From an uncultured Mycoplasmatota bacterium (GTDB taxonomy: Bacteria; Bacillota_I; Bacilli_A; RF39; UBA660): 48,259 nucleotides of DNA. Where the stretch lies: the NCBI GenBank assembly GCA_946414095.1, contig CAMKNB010000008.1:1-48259 (forward strand), given 5' to 3'. Under the pieces are notes generated by a model. It worked only from the letters and a program-made list of their open reading frames with translations. It was not told the DNA's origin and did no database searches. Both the position numbers and the translations under genes were made by a program. This document shows positions 4,974-47,994 of the stretch, in pieces; the stretch's first letter is position 1, and each line of letters opens with the position of its first letter.

Positions 4974-6536
4974 ATGAAAACTTATGGGCGTACAACCATT
5001 TATGCTAATTATACTGAACAACAACTTCTTGAAGGTACACCAGAAGAAATAGATAATAAAGTTTTAGATATACTAACAAATAGTATAGAAATACATAACA
5101 AAAATAATGAGGAAAGTGAATATTTACAAAATTATCTATATGGCGACCAAGATATTAAAAATAAAGTTAAATATACAAGAACTGAAATTAATAATGTAGG
5201 TGTTGAAAATTGGGCTTGGGCTTTTCAAGAATGGAAAAAAGCATTTCTTTTGGGAAAACCAATTCAATATGCTCCACTTGATGATAATGCTAATGAAGAA
5301 ATTACTAAATTAAATAATTATACAATTTATGAAGATAAAGACCAAAAAGACCAAGATATATATGAAGATATATTCACAGTAGGACGTGGTTTTAGGTATA
5401 TAGATTATACAAAAACAACAGAAGATGATGAATCACCTTTTGAAATATTAAATCTGGATGTATTAAATACAGAAGTTGTATATTCAAGTTCTATTGAACA
5501 CGAGCAATTATTATCTTTTGTAAAAACAAGTAAAAAATACATAGTACAACAAGTTAATCCTAAAACAGGGAAACCTGAAAATATGCCTAAATATTATGAT
5601 GAATATACTGTATATACTAGAAATTTAAAATATGTAATAAACAATAAAATAGGTAATTTGCAAATAATTGAGCAAGAAGTTAATGGTGAAAAACTTAAAA
5701 GAGTTCCAATTATACATAGCGTTCATTTAATTACTGAATATTATTTTAATAGAAAAAGAATGAGTTTTCTTGAAATATGCAAAGATATATTTGATGATTT
5801 AAACTATGTTGAAAATCTTGATAAAGATGATATAGAAGCCTTTGTTAATAGTATTATGGTATTTACTAATGCAGAAGTTGATGAAAAAGGTATGGAAAAA
5901 ATTAAAAAGTTTGGTGCAGTATCTATTAAATCAACTGATCAAAAGAAAGCAAGTGTTGAATTATTGCAAAGCAGATTAAAAGCATTAGATACACAAATAT
6001 ACTATTTAAGAAAATTAAGTGCATTACATAGTATATTAAGTGTTCCAGAAGCAACAAGCAATGGTAATGTTGCAAATGCTGAAACTGGTAAAGGTTTTTT
6101 AACAGGTCAAGGTTTTACAAGTGCAAGTATTAGGGTAGGTAATGAAGAAAAAGCATTTAAAAAATGCGATAGAAATTCTTTAAAAGTTATTCTTAAAATA
6201 TGTAGAAATGCTAGTGATAGTCAAATTAAAAATCTTAAAGTTAGTAATATAGACATTAAATTTAGTAGAGATTTAAGTGATAACTTACTTGTTAAGACAC
6301 AAGCATTAATGAATTTACAAAATGCAAATATTCCACCACAAGTTGCTAATGCAGTTATAGGTTTGTTTAGTGATCCTGTGGCAGTTACAAAACTTCAAGA
6401 AGCATATATACAACAAAAGCAAAAACTTCAAAATGCTATAAACGAACAAAAAGGCAATAATTTTAATGATAATAAAATAAATGAACAAAACAATAATATA
6501 CAAGATAATATTGAAAATAATAATCAAGAGCAGTAA
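4974..6536 (+). CDS. Portal protein, SPP1 Gp6-like
   Basis: 520 residues. The portal forms the dodecameric ring at the capsid vertex through which DNA moves. N-terminal section: helical, with YLYGDQDIKNK then NNVGVENWAWAFQEWKKAFLLGKPIQY. This is the usual start of the SPP1-type portal family, where a short DNA-tail stretch leads to a conserved GxP segment. The middle alternates beta and acidic parts, the C-terminal third is helical (stem/crown), and the tail is a disordered Asn/Gln-rich stretch. Length matches the family. Placement between TerL and scaffold supports the call. Confidence 0.9.
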   Translation: MKTYGRTTIYANYTEQQLLEGTPEEIDNKVLDILTNSIEIHNKNNEESEYLQNYLYGDQDIKNKVKYTRTEINNVGVENWAWAFQEWKKAFLLGKPIQYAPLDDNANEEITKLNNYTIYEDKDQKDQDIYEDIFTVGRGFRYIDYTKTTEDDESPFEILNLDVLNTEVVYSSSIEHEQLLSFVKTSKKYIVQQVNPKTGKPENMPKYYDEYTVYTRNLKYVINNKIGNLQIIEQEVNGEKLKRVPIIHSVHLITEYYFNRKRMSFLEICKDIFDDLNYVENLDKDDIEAFVNSIMVFTNAEVDEKGMEKIKKFGAVSIKSTDQKKASVELLQSRLKALDTQIYYLRKLSALHSILSVPEATSNGNVANAETGKGFLTGQGFTSASIRVGNEEKAFKKCDRNSLKVILKICRNASDSQIKNLKVSNIDIKFSRDLSDNLLVKTQALMNLQNANIPPQVANAVIGLFSDPVAVTKLQEAYIQQKQKLQNAINEQKGNNFNDNKINEQNNNIQDNIENNNQEQ

Positions 6537-6547
6537 TGCTCTTTATA

Positions 6548-6592
6548 TCGAGTGAGCTAGTGCGTAAGTTGGTGCAATTCCAACTCTCTCGA
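6548..6592 (+). other. tRNA-minihelix-like structure after portal gene
   Basis: A T-arm look-alike (GTTGG, loop TGCAATT, CCAAC; 6568-6584) stacks directly on an acceptor-like stem: CGAGTGA (6549-6555) with TCTCTCG (6585-6591), one U-U mismatch. Together they make the 12-bp coaxial helix of the top half of a tRNA. Base 6592 (A) and the following CCT resemble a discriminator plus CCA. Only 12 bases replace the D and anticodon arms, so it is not a normal tRNA. It could be an RNase P or RNase Z substrate, or a decayed tRNA. Confidence 0.5.
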
Positions 6593-6605
6593 CCTATTCA
6601 AGTTT

Positions 6606-6643
6606 TAACATTTGAACTTCACAAATGTTAGATATATTTTTTC
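6606..6643 (+). terminator. Hairpin with T-run, possible partial terminator
   Basis: Perfect 9-bp stem TAACATTTG/CAAATGTTA with a 7-nt loop, followed after a short A/T stretch by TTTTTT (6637-6642). The gap between stem and T-run makes it a weak terminator at best; it may attenuate between portal and scaffold genes or define an mRNA end. Confidence 0.45.
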
Positions 6644-6694
6644 TAGGGTTGGTAGTGCCTGTATTAATAACTACTGTAAGGAGGAAATAGAAAA

Positions 6695-7288
6695 ATGACT
6701 AGAGATGAAGCAAAAAAAATATTAGGAGAAGGAGCAACAGAAGAAGTAATTACTAATTTTCTTGACAATTATCATATTGAAGAAAGTGCTAAAATTAAAG
6801 ATTTAGAAACAAAAGTAAACAATTTGACACAAGAAAATAACAAATATAGTGATTATGATACTATTAAAAAGCAATTAGATGACATTAACAAGGCTAATAT
6901 GACAGAGCAAGAAAAACTTGAACAACAAAAGAAAGAAATTGAAAAAAATCTTAAAGATTCAAGAATAATTGTTAATACTGCAAAAGCAAAAGATTTGTTG
7001 GCTGGTTTAAATGTTAATGACACAATAATTGCTAAATTAGTAAGTGAAAACGAAACTGAAACTATAAATTCTGTAAATGAATTAAAAACTATGTTAGAAA
7101 CTCAAAAAGAACTTATTTCAAAGCAAACAAAAGAAAGTTTAACTAATGTTGACCTTAAACCTACTATTTCAAATGTTAATCAAAATGAAAACAATCAAAT
7201 GACACTTGATAAGTTTGGCAATATGAGTGCAGAAGAACAAAACAAGTGGCTACAAGAAAACCCTAATGGGTTACAAAATCTAAATTAA
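6695..7288 (+). CDS. Capsid scaffolding protein
   Basis: 197 residues with TAAGGAGGAAATAG upstream. Nearly all helix: a coiled coil (DLETKVNNLTQENNKYSDYDTI, split here by register changes) across about residues 33-95, a middle helical region, and a polar Gln/Asn-rich C-terminus (MSAEEQNKWLQENPNGLQ). This is the GP20-type scaffold pattern of Bacillota siphoviruses. Scaffold guides major capsid protein into proheads and then leaves. The call relies on composition and the invariable position immediately before the capsid gene. Confidence 0.82.
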   Translation: MTRDEAKKILGEGATEEVITNFLDNYHIEESAKIKDLETKVNNLTQENNKYSDYDTIKKQLDDINKANMTEQEKLEQQKKEIEKNLKDSRIIVNTAKAKDLLAGLNVNDTIIAKLVSENETETINSVNELKTMLETQKELISKQTKESLTNVDLKPTISNVNQNENNQMTLDKFGNMSAEEQNKWLQENPNGLQNLN

Positions 7289-12127: not shown

Positions 12128-15100
12128 ATGGATAATGAAACTAAAATTAGATTACAATTTAATAATTCAGTAAATGGTTCTAAAAAAATTGAAGAATACT
12201 CTAAAAATCTTGAAAGATTGTATGGTTTAGTTTCGGCTTTAAACAAAGGACAAATTGCACAACTAGAATCAAATGTTGGTGAAATAAATAAACAAATTAA
12301 AACAACAACAAAAGAAACAACAAATCTTGGAAATAAGTTTAGTTCAATATTTAATATTGCTAAAATTGGAGCATTAACAAAAGGTATCGAAAAATTATTT
12401 AGTTCATTAACAAGTGCATCTAAAAAAAGTAGTGAATATATCGAAAATGTAAACTTGTTAGAAGTTGCTTATAAAAATGCTAATGAAACAATAGAACAAT
12501 CTTCTCAAAGAATTGAAACATTTATTGATAAAATGGCAGAAGTATATGGACTTGATGAAAGCCGTTTAACAAGACAATTTGGTATATTTAAACAATTAGC
12601 AAATGCTATGCAATTACCTGCTGAAGAAGGTGAACGATTAAGCGAAATTATGGTTAAAATGACTAATGACGTAGCTTCTTTGTACAACCTTGATTTAGAA
12701 AGAGCAAGTAATGCGTTGCAAAGTGCTTTAGTAGGACAAACGCGTCCCATTAACTCGAGTGGGCTTACATTGAAAAGTGTAATGAATAAAATTGTGAACA
12801 CAAGCAAAAGTGGTGTAAGAGTAATAACAATGTTATTTAAGCAGGAAATGGCTTATTAATACTCTTGCTAACGGGGGAAATCTAAAACTTAAAAATTGAC
12901 AATTAGTGGTTAAACTGGTACAATATAAGTGGTGATAAATATGGAAGGAAGAATATATTGTTATCATTCTCCTAGTAATAAATATTATGTAGGGAAAACT
13001 TATTGTACTGATAAAAAAAGACAAAAAGACCATAAATATTGTGCTTATACAAAAATGGGAGAATATCCTTTTGCAAAAGCAATAAGAAAATATGGTTGGG
13101 AAAACATTTTAAAAACATATCAAATATTAGAAAAAGTATATGCTGATACAAAAGAGGAATTAAATTATAAATTAATAGAAAAAGAAAATTATTATATGGA
13201 TACAATGAATACATTAGTTCCTAATGGTTATAATGTGCAACATAGTAATCATATAGAAATACCACACAACCCTAATAAAGAAGAAACTTATAAAAAAATA
13301 TCACAAAAATTAAAAGGCAAAAATAACAACCCTTTAATATCAAATAGAGTTATGTGTGTAGAAATGGGAATTATATACCCATCGGTAAGAGAAGCAGAAA
13401 GACAAAACAATTATCCTAAAAATGCGTTAGGTAATTGCTTATATGGTAAACAAAAAACTGCTCAAGGTTTTCATTGGAAATATGTTGATAAGGAAACACC
13501 TAAATATGACATTGAAAAAGCAAGAAAAAAAACTATAAAAGGTTATAATCCTCAATGTATAGCAGTAATATGTTTAGAAACTCGAAAAGAATATAAATGT
13601 ATAAATGATTGTGCAAGAGATATGTTTAAAAATGTTTGGTATAAAAGAGGTATAAGTAAATCTTGTAAAACAGGTTGTGCTTATCATAATTACCATTTTA
13701 AGTTTTTAAGCCAAGACAATCCTGTGCCAAGCCTTAATAATAATTAAGGAAGGTGCAACGACTATTCCGTAAGGAAGTAGAGTTGAGATTAGCACAACTC
13801 GAAGTGCAATTATTCCTAAATGGAATATGATATAGTCTAATCCCTTATTTGAAATAAAATAAGTTAAAATACTAGGAAACTAGGGGTACAAAAATGAAGA
13901 GGTGCAACTGGAGCTGATATAACTGAAAAAACTTTACAAAATACAGTAGATGCTTTAGGTTTAGATAGAGAAATAAATCAATTATCATTTGTAGAAAAAA
14001 GGCTTGTAATGGTAATTTCATTAACTAATCAATTAAAAGTATCACAAGGCGACTATGCTAGAACAATAGAAAGTGCCTCTAACCAAATTCGTATAATGAA
14101 AGAACAATGGGATAGATTATCAAGAGCAGTTGGTAATGTATTTTATCCTATTTTGCAAAAGATTTTACCATATATAAATGGTGTTTTAATGGCATTAACT
14201 GAAATATTTAATTTATTAGCTTCTTTATTAGGCTTTGAAATGCCAGAGTTTGATTATAGTGGTTTATCAGTAACAAGTGATGCAGCATTAGACCTTATGG
14301 ATAATCTAGATGGTGCCGGGGAAAGTGCTGATAAATTGGCTTCTAAAATGAAAGGATTAAGAGGTTTTGATAAATTAAATGTTATAAACACACCTTCAAG
14401 TGGTGGAGGTGGAAGTGTTTCTGGTGGTGGCGGTTCTTTTGTAGATCCAAAAATAATGGATGCTTTTAATAAAACATTTGAGCAATATAATGACTTGATG
14501 GATAGTGTAAGAATGAAAGCACTTGATATTAGAGATGCCATAATGGAATGGTTAGGTTTTACTAAAAAAATAAACCCATTAACAGGAGAAATTAGTTGGG
14601 AATATGAAGGAATAGGTAAAACACTATCAAATATGTGGCAAAGTTTTAAAAAGCTTAATCCTCTTGCTAAATTGTTTGTTGCTTATGGTGTATGGAAAGC
14701 AATTAAAAATATATGGACTTGGGGAACTAAAGCAGCAAATGTATTAGGAATTGGTGGTTTAGGAAAATCAATTAAAAATGTTTTAATTGACAACATACAT
14801 ATTTTAAATGATGAAGCAGCAGACACAGCAAGTAATATGGATAGATTAAAAACAGCAGTAGTAGGAATAGGTTTTGGCGTTGCTGGTATTAATTTATTAA
14901 AAGATTCACTTGAAAGAGCAGATAGAGAAGGAAAATCATTAGCAACAACATTAGAAGGAGCTGCTGGTTATTTATCTACTATTGGTGGTTTTGCATTATC
15001 TGGTTCTGCATTCGGGCCTTGGGGTGCAGCAGCAGGATCAGCTATTGGAGCAGTAATATCAATGATAACTATTCTTACACAAGAACATAAAAATTATGTA

Positions 15101-16576
15101 GATTACTTTTTAGAAGATAGTGCAAAAGCATTAGAAGATTTTTCAAATAGTTTTGCCGAAGAAATGAAAAATATACAAAAAAATGCAGAATTTGATATGA
15201 CTAAAATAACTATAACTGAACAGTTAATAGATGAATTAGATAGAATTACTGACGCAAATGGTAGAGTTAAGGCTGGGTATGAAGATAGAGCAAAGTTTAT
15301 AATTAATGATTTAAACAAAGCGTATGGTCTTGAAATACAAATGATAGATGGTGTTATTCAAAAATACCCAGAAGAAATAAATAACTTGAAAAAAGTAATT
15401 GAACTAAAAAAAGCTGAAATTTACTTAAATCTTGCAGAAGAACAATACACTGCATCACTTAAAAGGAGAGCAGAAGCTGAAAGAATTTTATCTAACATTG
15501 AAGTTGAAAGACAATTAGTTATGCAAGATTCAACAAAAAGTGAAAAAGAAAAAATGGAATTATTTGCTGAAATTGATGAAAGAGAAAAAAAAGCAAAAAA
15601 CGATTTGTTGCTTATTGAAAAAGCAAAAGTAAATTACGAAAATATGTCAACTGCAATATTAACTGAAAACACTAATGATATTAAAGCAAATACAAAAGCA
15701 ATAGATCAATACTTTAAAGATTTAGATGCTGCAACAAATGAAAGCAATGAAAATTTATATGAAACTTCATATATAACTTGGAGAAAAATAGGTGCCGATT
15801 TAGCAAACAATTTTGATGTAATGGTAGAAGCAACTGGCAAAAGTTTTAATGAAATGAATGAGCAAGAACAAGCAGCATATACTCAAATGTTTGATGACTT
15901 AACTGACACAACAGCTAAAATGTTAGGTGAAGTTGGAGAACTTCAAATTGGTATGGGAACTAAATGGCAAGCCATAGGAGATACAAGTACAGAAGCATTT
16001 TTAGCAGCATTAGATAAAATACCTGCTGATTTAAGACAATTAGCAATTGATAAAATATATCCACAAGGTAAAGGAATGAGTGAGGAATTGCAACGTGGAA
16101 TAAACGAAAAATTCCCTGAACTTGTTGTAAAACCTAAACTTGAAATGCCAACCAATATTTATCAATATGCTCAAAATTTAGCAAGTAAAGTTTCTGGATG
16201 GTTTAATGTTACTCCAAACAAAACTGCTGCAACAGGTGGAATATTTGTAAATGGTAAATGGCAAGATGTAGCTCAATATGCTAGTGGAACAGTAAATGCT
16301 CCAGTAGGCCAAATGTTTGTGGCAAGAGAAAGAGGCCCTGAACTTGTAGGAACTATTGGAGGACATACAGCAGTAATGAACAACGATCAAATAGTAAGCA
16401 GTGTAGCAAGTGGGGTATATCAAGCAGTAAAGAGTGCAACTTCGCAACAAACATCAAGTCAACCACAAGTATTTAACATATATTTAGACAAAAACAATAA
16501 AATAGCAACATATATGTTAGATAAGTTTGATGATATGGCAAAATCAAACGGAAAACCAATAGAGATAGGAGGTTAA
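12128..16576 (+). CDS. Tape measure protein, split by a group I intron
   Basis: Exons 12128-12750 and 13897-16576 join in frame to 1100 residues. The splice joins AT (12749-12750) with A (13897) as an Ile codon, restoring GQTRPI-RGATGADITEKTL, a stretch conserved in Bacillota tape measures. Without splicing the frame runs to a stop at 12857-12859. The tape measure sets tail length and helps DNA entry. Features: N-terminal coiled coil, hydrophobic segments (LLASLLGFEMP; a Gly/Ala-rich membrane-like stretch around STIGGFALSGSAFGPWGAA), long charged helices, and a C-terminal GGIFVNGKWQ...VARERGPELVG domain. Codon use is uniform across both exons. Confidence 0.9.
12896..12924 (+). promoter_or_regulatory. 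Intron-internal promoter for homing endonuclease
   Basis: TTGACA (12896-12901), 17-base spacer, TACAAT (12919-12924). The predicted start (about 12931) is only some ten bases before ATG 12941, leaving just GGTGAT as ribosome binding site. It would allow early expression of the endonuclease independent of late tail transcription. Confidence 0.7.
12941..13747 (+). CDS. GIY-YIG homing endonuclease with NUMOD repeats
   Basis: 268 residues from ATG 12941 (GTG codons at 12929/12932 are in frame but lie at the promoter start). The enzyme nicks or cuts intronless alleles so the intron is copied in. N-terminus: the GIY-YIG module reads GRIYCYHSPSNKYYVGKT, with a later catalytic-region Arg/His (KRQKDHKY) and the terminal Glu/Asn helix (EKENYYMDTMNT; YNVQ). 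Middle and C-terminal parts hold two DNA-binding NUMOD/IENR1-like units, around residues 135-180 (CVEMGIIYPSVREAER...GFHWKYV) and 205-258 (CLETRKEYKCINDCAR...YHFKF). Intact and probably active. Confidence 0.9.
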   Translation: MEGRIYCYHSPSNKYYVGKTYCTDKKRQKDHKYCAYTKMGEYPFAKAIRKYGWENILKTYQILEKVYADTKEELNYKLIEKENYYMDTMNTLVPNGYNVQHSNHIEIPHNPNKEETYKKISQKLKGKNNNPLISNRVMCVEMGIIYPSVREAERQNNYPKNALGNCLYGKQKTAQGFHWKYVDKETPKYDIEKARKKTIKGYNPQCIAVICLETRKEYKCINDCARDMFKNVWYKRGISKSCKTGCAYHNYHFKFLSQDNPVPSLNNN

Positions 16577-38201: not shown

Positions 38202-38202
38202 G

Positions 38203-38230
38203 AGAATCTTACAAAAGATTTTCTTTTTTT
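38203..38230 (+). terminator. Terminator of basic protein gene
   Basis: AGAATCTT pairs with AAGATT(TT)CT around a short ACAA loop, followed by seven T. It uses the first copy of the AAGATT repeat as its right arm. Confidence 0.7.
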
Positions 38231-38344
38231 ATACAAAAGATTACTTAAAAGATTATTCAAAAGATTAAAAAACTTCCCATAAGATTACAAAAGATTTCCC
38301 AGAAGATTTTATAGAAGATTAGCCAAAAGATTAGAAAAAAGATT
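38211..38344 (+). repeat. Degenerate 12-bp tandem array (AAAAGATT units)
   Basis: The core AAGATT starts at 38215, 38237, 38249, 38261, 38281, 38291, 38303, 38315, 38327 and 38339. Most steps are exactly 12 bp (others 10, 20, 22), with consensus like CAAAAGATTA plus two to four variable bases. All copies are on the same strand and stop codons interrupt every frame, so it is not coding. Candidate initiator-, partition- or regulator-binding array. It follows the basic protein gene and precedes a very A/T-rich region. Confidence 0.8.
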
Positions 38345-38366
38345 TATAATACAAAAAATATAATAA

Positions 38367-38404
38367 AAAAATGATGATAAAACTGGATCATTTTTCTTTT
38401 TTTC
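38367..38404 (+). terminator. Second rightward terminator
   Basis: 9-bp stem AAAAATGAT/ATCATTTTT with an 11-nt loop and a C-interrupted T-run (CTTTTTTTCT). It lies just after the 12-bp repeat array, shielding the downstream intergenic region from transcription. Confidence 0.75.
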
Positions 38405-38620
38405 TGTTCTAATTATTTCATGCTAAAAAAATAATAAAATAATAGTTAAATAATAATATAGTCTTAAAACTTACAAAAACGCCTCAATTTTTAATGTTTT
38501 AATTTTCTAGAATATTTATACTAATTTTATAATAATCGTTGTATTTTGCCTATTTATTGAAGTTATACGACACAATTACATTATAACTTTAATTAAATAA
38601 TAATTGAATATACTATTATT

Positions 38621-38660
38621 TTGCTTTTAATTGCCTTTAATTCGCTTTTTATTGTTCTTT
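38621..38660 (+). repeat. Four 10-bp units with phased T-tracts
   Basis: Consecutive decamers TTGCTTTTAA, TTGCCTTTAA, TTCGCTTTTT, ATTGTTCTTT. T-tracts recurring every helical turn should curve the DNA. Part of the 38405-38800 gene-free region, which otherwise holds only A/T-rich sequence and no believable ORF. Confidence 0.65.
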
Positions 38661-38690
38661 TAGTATAAATATATTAAATAATAAAAAAGT

Positions 38691-38720
38691 GCCTAAAAAC
38701 GCCTAAAAAGTGCCAAAAAA
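38691..38720 (+). repeat. Three 10-bp units with phased A-tracts
   Basis: Consecutive decamers GCCTAAAAAC, GCCTAAAAAG, TGCCAAAAAA. Together with the T-tract array 30 bp to the left they flank a short A/T spacer, consistent with a bent-DNA element. Confidence 0.65.
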
Positions 38721-38800
38721 TAGATATTAATATATTATATAATAAAATAATAGTATAATCTAATAGTATTATATAAATTAATAAATAATAATATATAAAT

Positions 38801-38831
38801 AAAAAAACTATATAAATAATTATATAGTTTT
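38801..38831 (-). terminator. Leftward terminator of the minus-strand operon
   Basis: 11-bp stem AAAACTATATA/TATATAGTTTT with a 6-nt loop; read on the minus strand it is followed by seven U (plus A-run 38801-38807). It overlaps the stop codon of the gene at 38830. Confidence 0.82.
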
Positions 38832-39929: not shown

Positions 39930-39959
39930 CTTTTCCCTTTCTTCATTTAAGACAATTAT

Positions 39960-39988
39960 AATATATCACATTATATATATATTGTCAA
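39960..39988 (-). promoter_or_regulatory. Promoter of the minus-strand operon
   Basis: On the minus strand TTGACA (plus 39983-39988), 17-base spacer, TATATT (plus 39960-39965). Start near 39953, about 24 bases before the GTG at 39929. An alternative TATAAT lies five bases further on but with too long a spacer. Confidence 0.7.
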
Positions 39989-39989
39989 C

Positions 39990-40647
39990 ACTTTATATGT
40001 AAAAAGTTAATATTTTTTTATATTTTACATTTTTACTATATAAATATACTATATTATTAAATAATTATATTATATATTATTAGCTATTATTATATAGATC
40101 TACTATATATTGATATTATTATATTAATATTAATATAGTCTAATTTATAGATATATATATATATATTATTTTATTATTAAATTATATTAATTATTTAAAT
40201 TAAATTATATATCATATAATTTTATATATATAGATAAATAGTAATATATATATTGATAGTATATTATTATATTATATATTTTATATTTATTTTTATAGTA
40301 ATATATATATTGTGCTATAAATAGTTATAATATTTTATATATATTATATTAATAAAAAAATGAATTAAAAAAACAATAAAAAAAATGATTTACTGTTCTA
40401 TTGTTTAATGATTCAATATCTGGAGTGTTTCAACGTTCAATATTATTGATTAATAAACGTTAAGACCTTAAAAACAATGATCTAGTGCTTACCTATCCCA
40501 CTATATAAAAACGAAAATTGCCCAAATTACCTCCTCATCCAACCCCAACAACATTTTCAAACTGAAAAACCTAGTAAAATTTTAATAAAACAAAGATAAA
40601 TGATATAATAAAGAAAAAAAGAGCTTAAACAGAAAGAAGGTAAAAGA
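39990..40647. other. Gene-free region: A/T-only tract then mixed sequence
   Basis: From about 40005 to 40360 the sequence is almost only A and T, with only isolated G or C, and contains alternating TATATA runs expected to melt easily. 40385-40560 regains C and G: it holds the inverted repeat at 40432-40461 and a CCTCCTCATCC segment resembling the 3' end of 16S rRNA (anti-Shine-Dalgarno). 40590-40647 has a TGATATAAT -10-like element (40604-40609 region) with no clear -35, probably serving the phosphoesterase gene. No believable ORF on either strand. Possible unwinding region or divergent control region. Confidence 0.6.
40432..40461. repeat. Imperfect inverted repeat around AACGTT
   Basis: AACGTT (40432-40437) and AACGTT (40456-40461) enclose TATTA and TAATA in mirrored order, giving arms AACGTT..TATTA/TAATA.AACGTT. 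As AACGTT is itself palindromic, this could be a dimer- or tetramer-binding operator. No associated promoter is certain. Confidence 0.4.
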
Positions 40648-43812: not shown

Positions 43813-43841
43813 TTGACAACACATTTAATAAGTGTTATACT
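43813..43841 (+). promoter_or_regulatory. Promoter of the large noncoding RNA
   Basis: TTGACA (43813-43818), 17-base spacer, TATACT (43836-43841): one base from consensus. Predicted start 43848-43850. There is no ORF or ribosome binding site downstream until 44679, so the product is an RNA. Confidence 0.85.
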
Positions 43842-43847
43842 TAATAT

Positions 43848-44632
43848 GTGATAGAAATATCGCTGCTATGCTAATAAGCAATTTACTTTTGTAAGTTGCT
43901 TTGAGTAGATAATGTAGTCAATATTGAATTAACTAGCAGATTGTATAAAGCCATTAGCCGTTTTTAGGATAACTACTGAGGTATGTTTTAACTAATCCCC
44001 TGATACAATCAAAAAGCAGATATAAAAAATGGGAGGCTAGTTCATCGCTGTTATCTATTCAAAGGTGCTTATAAAAGCATTAGTCAGGTGGCAGTAGCGG
44101 CTTAAACAATACTGATAGGAAAACTAATAAATCTAGTTTATAAGGAAGTTATATGAAGTCATTAGTTCCACTAATAGTAGTAATGTAAAGTCCTAATTTA
44201 AGTAGCAACTTTATAGGTTGCTTTATAGCATATTAAGTTAGAAGTGGTAAGACACTAGAAAAAATCTATCTTGCAAGTACAATATGCTATTTCTATACAT
44301 ACCAAGAGTATGATATAGCCTGAGTCACTCTAACGTATAAAGGAGTGAACCCGTACTTGGCACAATGCCAGTATACTATCTTAATTGATAGTATTGAGTA
44401 GATATATAAAACAAGAGTGAGCCTAAAGGTTTGTATTATATGATAAGTCACGTCGTATATATACAGGCTTGGACGACGCAGAAGTTGTAAGGAACAAGCA
44501 ACAGACCTTTATATCTACTCAATAGTATTTATTAATAATCTAAAGTCAATCTTTCACCTTCAAGAATATAAGATTGAAAACTTCATGGAAAAACTAGGTA
44601 CTCCTTTCTTCGTTCATTACCTAGTTTTTTGT
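43848..44632 (+). ncRNA. Large structured noncoding RNA (GOLLD/ROOL-like candidate)
   Basis: About 785 nt between a near-consensus promoter and a 12-bp terminator; no ORF, GC clearly above the flanking DNA. Helices by eye: 43877-43886/43891-43900 (10 bp, UUUU loop); 43939-43946/44003-44010; 44065-44070/44075-44080; 44204-44209/44217-44222; 44225-44234/44281-44290 (10 bp perfect); 44325-44330/44343-44348; 44358-44362/44366-44370; 44373-44380/44387-44394; 44393-44405/44511-44523 (13 bp perfect) enclosing 44428-44434/44501-44507 and 44451-44456/44473-44478; 44550-44556/44570-44576. Size, independent transcription and phage setting resemble GOLLD or ROOL RNAs, which assemble into large RNA-only multimers. 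I cannot confirm family from memory. Confidence 0.8.
44589..44630 (+). terminator. Terminator of the large RNA
   Basis: Perfect 12-bp stem AAAAACTAGGTA/TACCTAGTTTTT (44589-44600 with 44618-44629), 17-nt loop, T-run. One of the strongest terminators in the genome. Confidence 0.92.
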
Positions 44633-47142: not shown

Positions 47143-47994
47143 ATGAATGGAAGTTCAACAGGTGTTATCCCTACATTTGATATTTCTGGGAACAATGGAA
47201 ATAATGGTTGGGGTGGATCTATGGGTGAATGGATCATTGGTTTAGTTGCTTTAGGTATGCTAGGTAATGGTGGTTTATTTGGTGGCTTTGGTGGTGGCTA
47301 TGGTGGAATGATGTACGAGTTCCCTTGGTTATTAACAGGTCAAAATGGAATTAACAACAATGTTAATGATGGATTTGATAACTTACATTTAAGCAACCAA
47401 ATTGAAGGAACAAGAGATGCCGTAAATACTCTTGCAAATTCATTATGTACATCAACTGCAAGTATTAATAGCAATATAGCAAATGGTTTCTATAATAGTG
47501 AAATTAGTGCTAATAATAGAGCAATTAATCAAATGCAAGACACATTTGCTTTAAGCAGACAATTTGCAGATTGCTGTTGTGAAAATCGTTTAGCAACTTG
47601 CCAAACACAAAATATAGTTCAAAATGAAGGAAATGTTACTAGATTTGCAGATGCAAATAATACAAGAGATATTATTACTAATGCAACATCAAATACTCAA
47701 GCAATACTTGATAAGTTATGTCAATTAGAACTAGATGGTGTTAAGGCTCAAGTAGAAGCAAAAAATGATAGAATTGCTGATTTACAAAGAGAATTAACTA
47801 TGAAAGATTTACAAGCATCACAAATAGCTCAAAACGCATTTATTTCACAAGGTTTTGCTAACGAAGTAGATCAATTGTATAACAGACTTTCTAACTGCCC
47901 TGTACCAAGTACACCAGTTTATGGAAGAACACCTATATTCACTTGCCCTAACAACAATGGTTGTGGATGCAATGGGTATAACAATTTAATTTAA
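47143..47994 (+). CDS. Gly-rich, Cys-containing putative virion protein
   Basis: 283 residues, RBS AAGAAAGGAGAGAAAAAAC. Residues 1-70 are Gly-rich and hydrophobic (GEWIIGLVALGMLGNGGLFG), possibly membrane-interacting. Residues 80-240 are a long helical region with repeating Asn/Ala/Gln and a CCCENRLATC cluster near 145. The C-terminal 30 residues are Pro/Cys-rich (FTCPNNNGCGCNGYNN). A membrane-active internal virion protein or a head fibre-base is plausible; no certain family. The high Cys count makes the phage tRNA-Cys relevant. Confidence 0.68.
   Translation: MNGSSTGVIPTFDISGNNGNNGWGGSMGEWIIGLVALGMLGNGGLFGGFGGGYGGMMYEFPWLLTGQNGINNNVNDGFDNLHLSNQIEGTRDAVNTLANSLCTSTASINSNIANGFYNSEISANNRAINQMQDTFALSRQFADCCCENRLATCQTQNIVQNEGNVTRFADANNTRDIITNATSNTQAILDKLCQLELDGVKAQVEAKNDRIADLQRELTMKDLQASQIAQNAFISQGFANEVDQLYNRLSNCPVPSTPVYGRTPIFTCPNNNGCGCNGYNNLI

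Follow-up and report, generated by a model that had tools for sequence, protein, structure and literature searches.

The locus and its ORF-less region

The window, i.e., the whole stretch of 48,259 nucleotides that was analysed, is one contig in an AT-rich bacterial genome bin (G000). The first-pass annotation had described approximately 785 nt without an ORF at positions 43848-44632, and the ORF scan bore this out for the + strand, where no ORF of 30 amino acids or more was present; the sole ORF, of 52 amino acids, was antisense. The region is flanked upstream by a GT10 and a GT2 gene, both already named in that annotation, and downstream by a 102-aa gene of unknown function. The only tRNA of this rumen or gut phage, which had been described as distant, is a tRNA-Cys at position 1549, some 42 kb from the region along the linear window. 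The promoter and the perfect 12-bp terminator stem that had been proposed as the borders of the RNA were both found:

43813-43841, + strand: promoter-like TTGACA-N17-TATACT, an 11/12 consensus match with TG before the -10
43848-44632, + strand: structured non-coding RNA, a putative modular array without a + strand ORF, with a fold z of -2.9 and homologous domains in viral loci
44589-44629, + strand: terminator-like stem, a perfect 12 bp (44589-44600 with 44618-44629) with a 17-nt loop, then U

Promoter-like matches in the RNA region were not in excess (17 vs. 17.7 in shuffles), and a simple terminator scan of the window RNA called none, the 17-nt loop of the stem exceeding the scope of that scan. 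The predicted fold of the RNA was more stable than those of 20 of 20 dinucleotide shuffles. The analysis thus confirmed that 43848-44632 lacks ORFs, folds strongly, and is bordered by a near-consensus promoter on one side and a terminator-like stem on the other.

Elsewhere in the window, a GIY-YIG-like ORF (12929-13747) splits an apparent tape-measure gene into two halves (12128-12859 and 14009-16576). This is possibly an intron or an inserted homing endonuclease; no Rfam intron was found there. Two further ORF-less stretches, in which the GC content falls to approximately 12%, occur at 38202-38829 (628 nt) and 39930-40647 (718 nt), and parts of them are conserved in the phage of the viral locus L090.

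The frame and its kissing loops in viral relatives

Relatives of the window RNA were sought by several routes. With the gene at 47143-47994, 2.4 kb downstream of the RNA, as bait, 80 viral contigs were obtained, two of which held pieces of the window RNA: L027 contained a 65-nt stretch with 89% identity, and L011 contained a 1.3-kb non-coding region ahead of the equivalent genes, with a domain resembling the 3' part of the window RNA. A search of the viral contigs with the M2 domain of the window RNA, described below, identified L090 and L091. Searches for two short recurrent motifs, which were biased to frames near the consensus, gave 67 and 55 stretches in the viral contigs, and in approximately 30 loci the two motifs occurred together, correctly ordered and 48-215 bases apart. 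The overall comparison covered approximately 100 viral loci, and the comparative set was metagenomic. When the window RNA was compared with GenBank phages by blastn, only short matches were returned (the promoter end, the terminator, and simple stretches); an exact 34-mer of the RNA was not found in the viral contigs, and the downstream 102-aa protein as bait found no relatives. Direct DNA similarity to 147 related genomes yielded short pieces only, one of which (G042/L003) was a module. No description of such a module was found in the open-access PMC literature, and an earlier description elsewhere is possible.

To judge from these loci, the recurrent unit is a module, not found in Rfam, that consists of a hairpin A, a stem P around a payload, and a hairpin B. 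Specifically, the 5' hairpin A, the 5' strand of stem P (11-13 bp), the payload (15 to approximately 170 nt), the 3' strand P', and the 3' hairpin B follow in this order and abut. Stem P is usually of the type TTGAGTAGATATA ... TATATCTATTCAA, with a second type, TACTGATGATATA ... TATATCATTAGTA. The first-pass annotation had allowed for a new class, which is consistent with the window RNA being an array of recurrent modules without an Rfam entry.

The A and B loops were shown by comparison to be complementary and covarying, and P and A to be conserved as predicted helices. The A loop UUUAUAGG is complementary to the B loop CUUAUAAA, and further covarying loop pairs include UUUCAAGA with UUUUGAAA (L137), UUAAUUA with UAAUUAA (L104), UAAUAAG with CUUAUUA (L107), and CCAUAGG with CUUAUGG (L140). 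Among 69 modules picked by A, P, and B, with loop matching playing no part in the choice, cognate A/B loops scored 13.3, compared with 11.5 ± 0.25 for permuted loops, and none of 10,000 permutations reached this value. The same was true of the 28 modules with non-consensus A loops (12.7 vs. 9.3 ± 0.48; 0 of 10,000). In an alignment of 49 frames, made after the manual removal of approximately ten modules that were odd or antisense and of some additional near-duplicates, 96.9% of the cells were paired, compared with 84.0 ± 0.6% after shuffling, and sliding the partners by 1-3 columns lowered the pairing from 96.9% to 32-52%. Double changes occurred in 8 of 11 columns of stem P and 5 of 5 of hairpin A, although the percentages for A and P are inflated because both served in module selection. 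The kissing helix, with 93.6% pairing and 6 of its 8 columns changed on both sides, is the independent test, since kissing pairing had no role in the selection. Furthermore, a G-U pair at P column 33/52 was kept in 45 of the 49 frames. In DNA this pair would be mismatched, and RNA of the other strand would have a mismatched A-C in its place, so its retention favours RNA of this strand over DNA. In RNAs with several modules, cognate loop partners were favoured only modestly over cross partners (12.3 vs. 10.7). Covariation across homologues had been suggested as a check on the RNA, and both stems and loops were found to covary among the relatives. The region 43848-44632 was also judged not to be decayed coding sequence.

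The window RNA itself appears to comprise two frame modules (M1 and M3), the domain M2, whose stem covaries, and a conserved ACCCG domain:

43876-43901, + strand: M1 5' hairpin A, loop CUUUUGUAAG at 43886-43895, a 10-nt complement to the M1 B loop
43901-43914, + strand: M1 stem P 5' strand (TTGAGTAGATAATG), pairing with 44049-44062; contains the consensus 11-mer
43915-44048, + strand: M1 payload of the GAATTAACTAGC ... GGCTAGTTC class, also found in L090 and, at another locus, in L103
44049-44062, + strand: M1 stem P 3' strand, partner of 43901-43914
44063-44081, + strand: M1 3' hairpin B, loop CUUAUAAAAG at 44068-44077, an exact match to pattern B and complementary to the M1 A loop
44115-44224, + strand: 110-nt segment that takes in the M2 5' hairpin and is missing from the L090 RNA, which otherwise matches
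44202-44222, + strand: M2 5' hairpin, loop CUUUAUA at 44209-44215; candidate pairing, from a single sequence, with UAUAAAG at 44336-44342
44225-44290, + strand: M2 stem and core, a 10-bp stem (44225-44234/44281-44290) around the conserved 46-nt GUUAGAAGUGGUAAGACAC..AUCUAUCUUGCAAGUAC
44322-44371, + strand: ACCCG domain, in which ACCCG lies between two hairpins, immediately ahead of M3
44373-44394, + strand: M3 5' hairpin A, loop UUAAUU, of a class common to L011, L104, and L154
44394-44406, + strand: M3 stem P 5' strand, a perfect 13 bp with 44510-44522
44407-44509, + strand: M3 payload (UAAAA ... AAAGG ... ACCUU), with like ends, by eye, in L011, L135, L163, L172, and L180
44510-44522, + strand: M3 stem P 3' strand, partner of 44394-44406
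44523-44542, + strand: M3 3' hairpin B, weak; AUUAA at 44531-44535 could pair with UUAAU of A

The motif TTGAGTAGATA occurs three times in the window, in all cases inside this RNA, compared with 0.06 expected. A TTGAGTAGATA-type 5' strand of P with abutting A and B hairpins was found in M1 and M3, and the P stem of M2 has another sequence. In M1 (43876-44081), the predicted kiss between CUUUUGUAAG and CUUAUAAAAG comprises 10 bp with one G-U, and stem P comprises 14 bp with G-U included. In M3 (44373-44542), the kiss would comprise 5 bp only and is weak on its own, and the G-U conserved in the P stems of the family is a G-C. M2 (44202-44290) has no clear B partner; the UAUAAAG candidate partner of its 5' loop is itself the loop of a hairpin (44322-44348), again proposed from a single sequence. 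Among the four sequences available for M2 (the window, L027, L090, and L091), 7 of the 10 stem pairs were doubly changed, with 97.5% pairing, and the 46-nt core was almost invariant. L090 matches the window at 43885-44114 and 44225-44355, with only 4 nt between the two blocks. The ACCCG layout also precedes modules in L003, L090, L092, L103, L137, L160, L185, and L201. The two long-range pairings of 13 and 10 bp that had been noted earlier are real and correspond to stem P of M3 and the M2 stem. The AGCAA/TTGCT arms common to the hairpins at 43876-43901 and 44202-44222 are likewise real. Their interpretation as an alternative-pairing switch was dropped: the two hairpins are instead the 5' (A) hairpins of separate modules, and the M1 A loop matches the loop of M1's own B hairpin.

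In searches with the covariance model R1, whose 49 training sequences included the window's two frames, the window's modules scored 16-19 bits, compared with 50-72 bits for typical modules elsewhere, with E values of 0.0005-0.003 in a 1.1-kb search with filters off and 0.28-0.43 in a 1-Mb search. These low scores are attributable to long payloads and atypical loops, and the window RNA thus appears to be an atypical member of the class, to which it is tied mainly by the near-identity of M1 to L090, the exact P motif, and the shared domains. A strict structure-only scan of the window returned one module, yet 5 of 60 shuffles also yielded one, so the case for the window rests on comparison and not on the single sequence.

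Distribution, payload exchange, and tRNA-like payloads

In terms of transcription signals, an extended -10 was present within 110 nt upstream of 27 of 50 module loci (9.7 expected), and a terminator within 140 nt downstream of 26 of 50 (5.3 expected). Other modules were located inside late operons, often ahead of genes that, by sequence reading rather than by model, were scaffold-like or terminase small subunit-like. R1 found modules in 45 of 47 viral records, which had been chosen for having modules; several modules occurred in some records, and L101, L185, and L128 contained single-module RNAs. In the host family of the window, R1 matched at least 22 of 386 genomes and at least 20 of 150 genera, counts that are lower bounds, as R1 penalises long payloads. 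Among 296 genomes drawn from across the class, R1 matches were found only in members of this family. The exact frame motif was found in four named genomes, all of them bins from the gut, under the labels Bacilli, Erysipelotrichaceae, Clostridia, and Actinomycetes; the binning of phage contigs may be unreliable.

Comparison of orthologous loci showed that the frame is retained from phage to phage whereas its payload is exchanged or lost, one frame being associated with many payload types. In L105 and L147, the 150-nt flanks were 99-100% identical and the frame 100% identical, but alignment of the payloads, of 54 and 61 nt, was no better than for shuffled payloads (z = -0.4). The scoring was based on alignments of shuffled payloads, as BLAST coverage is misleading when alignments cross short unrelated stretches. 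Payloads were also unlike in L092/L103, L105/L184, L147/L184, and L090/L181 (z = -1.0 to 1.6), giving five pairs at three independent orthologous loci with an 87-100% identical frame and an unrelated payload; in contrast, three other pairs had matching payloads (z = 21-26). Meanwhile, the window and L090 shared 230 nt with 99.6% identity, whereas their phage genes were 65-78% identical in DNA and their GT10 proteins 43% identical, suggesting cassette transfer between phages. The M1-type payload also occurred at the different locus in L103, and a third payload type was recognised by eye in L109, L111, L138, and L166.

Some payloads in the relatives resembled tRNAs. A five-pair T-arm was detected in 6 of 72 payloads, whereas shuffles gave 0.1 and the antisense strand gave none; in four of the six it abutted P' as in a tRNA. 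The T-arm stem was kept through changed pairs between L123 (ATTAGG..CCTAT) and L164 (AAAAGG..CCTTT). With the tRNA model, for which the cut-off is 29 bits, the payloads of L154 and L164 scored 28.8 and 23.6 bits, and that of L159 (L159:2854-2929, - strand) scored 41.4 bits as an intact tRNA, called tRNA-Glu by ARAGORN, whose acceptor stem is the P stem of the module. ARAGORN found no tRNA in any payload of the first 30 module loci. The window RNA (43848-44632) gave no tRNA or T-arm match, and tRNA-like payloads occurred in relatives only.

Possible roles and relation to known phage RNAs

We tentatively favour, as a reading somewhat short of probable, a stand-alone modular RNA whose loops kiss, preferably between copies, and whose payloads are displayed as decoys or ligands. 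The RNA would be made from the phage's own promoter or within the late operon and assembled from copies of one frame (A, P, payload, P', and B), and the A and B loops would pair once the RNA is folded or assembled, possibly in cis. Trans kissing, in chains or rings, is favoured because the joints of 0-2 nt at the base of P would strain an 8-bp kiss within one module. A known RNA of similar shape is the pRNA of phage phi29, a phage RNA in which two hairpins and a stem meet at one point and which forms a ring via complementary loops. The module shares this arrangement and the complementary loops, and differs in its permuted strand order, the payload closing the stem, and in its variable payload; the Rfam pRNA models had no match in the window. 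Each payload, presented by P, may serve as decoy or ligand to a factor of the host, or of a rival phage, that varies between hosts. Such a target would explain the fast turnover of cassettes, the presence of several modules per phage, and the tRNA mimics, and the proposed decoy role rests on the minority of payloads that are tRNA-like.

The main rival is the same modular RNA kissing in cis, as a compact closed frame that confers stability through nuclease-resistant ends and forms no multimer. We consider this unlikely overall: the kissing partners do lie within the same module and single-module RNAs do occur, but, geometrically, joints of 0-2 nt would make it hard to fit a kiss of 7-10 bp between stems that are only 5-8 bp long. 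A cis element of the late mRNA, situated between head genes or ahead of the terminase small subunit gene and acting on processing, attenuation, or the control of translation, would suit those modules that are close to gene ends in the late operon, such as the one in L105, with a head gene ending 22 nt upstream and the next gene starting 40 nt downstream. This is very improbable, given the promoters and terminators at approximately half of the 50 loci, payloads that are unconstrained at a fixed position, and the unrelated genes around the window's RNA.

A divergent ROOL or GOLLD nanocage RNA, the class that the first-pass annotation had in mind, is improbable in the extreme. The part of that proposal describing a large structured phage ncRNA stands, and size and phage origin agree with it, but the covariance models gave no GOLLD or ROOL match in the window, even at E values up to 10, and the only Rfam match in the whole window was the tRNA-Cys. 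As ROOL, the window RNA was rejected for giving no RF03087 match at the gathering threshold (99.1 bits); as GOLLD, it was rejected for lacking both an RF01998 match and a nearby tRNA island. The link is indirect: ROOL reached the RF03087 threshold in L011, L107, and L182, in each case sharing a non-coding locus with modules. The ROOL of L011, which is full-length and scores 149 bits, occupies the non-coding locus corresponding to the window's; a 27-bp stem closes it, and its flanks can pair over 11 nt, as if it were a payload itself; this resemblance is not clear in other ROOL loci. In L182 and L107, ROOL is a separate domain adjoining the modules. A ROOL-like sequence in L245, located by its conserved motif alone rather than by the model score used for the other three, lies beside nine tRNA genes in a row (6376-7098, - strand), with a module approximately 1 kb away. 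ROOL was found in 1 of 49 module-bearing records tested, making its association with modules occasional. ROOL resembles the window RNA as a large phage ncRNA from the rumen with kissing loops and nearby tRNAs, but it has one ornate fold, whereas in the window RNA small frames, with contents that can be exchanged, would follow one another in a chain. GOLLD is also a large phage ncRNA, and its disordered linker sometimes holds tRNAs (PMC12286853), recalling the L159 payload; however, the module is without the conserved 3' domain, and its tRNA sits in the frame stem as the acceptor. Finally, a mobile or recombining DNA cassette without RNA function (MITE- or attC-like inverted repeats) would account for exchangeable contents between inverted repeats and for one payload at different loci, but it has hardly any probability in view of the strand-specific G-U, the compensatory changes in P and the kissing loops, and the promoters and terminators outside the arrays.

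Extending the favoured reading of a stand-alone modular RNA, rumen Bacilli phages might carry a self-assembling RNA display in which frames polymerise and payloads act as counter-defence decoys that spread as cassettes. This extension is doubtful; the candidate payloads would be tRNA mimics, aptamer-like domains, and perhaps ROOL. GOLLD and ROOL are large phage RNAs that form cages, and a constant frame with exchangeable, partly tRNA-like contents would lead to concrete hypotheses on what large phage RNAs bind. The natural payload swaps within near-identical flanks are ready-made experiments, and the display, if real, would give modular RNA nanotechnology a precedent in nature.

Two other Rfam RNAs, neither homologous to the frame, were neighbours of modules: a skipping-rope RNA (RF02924, 55.3 bits; L123:3656-3739, + strand) lies directly upstream of a module, and a GP20-b RNA (RF03003, 54.9 bits; L216:1905-1968, - strand) adjoins one.
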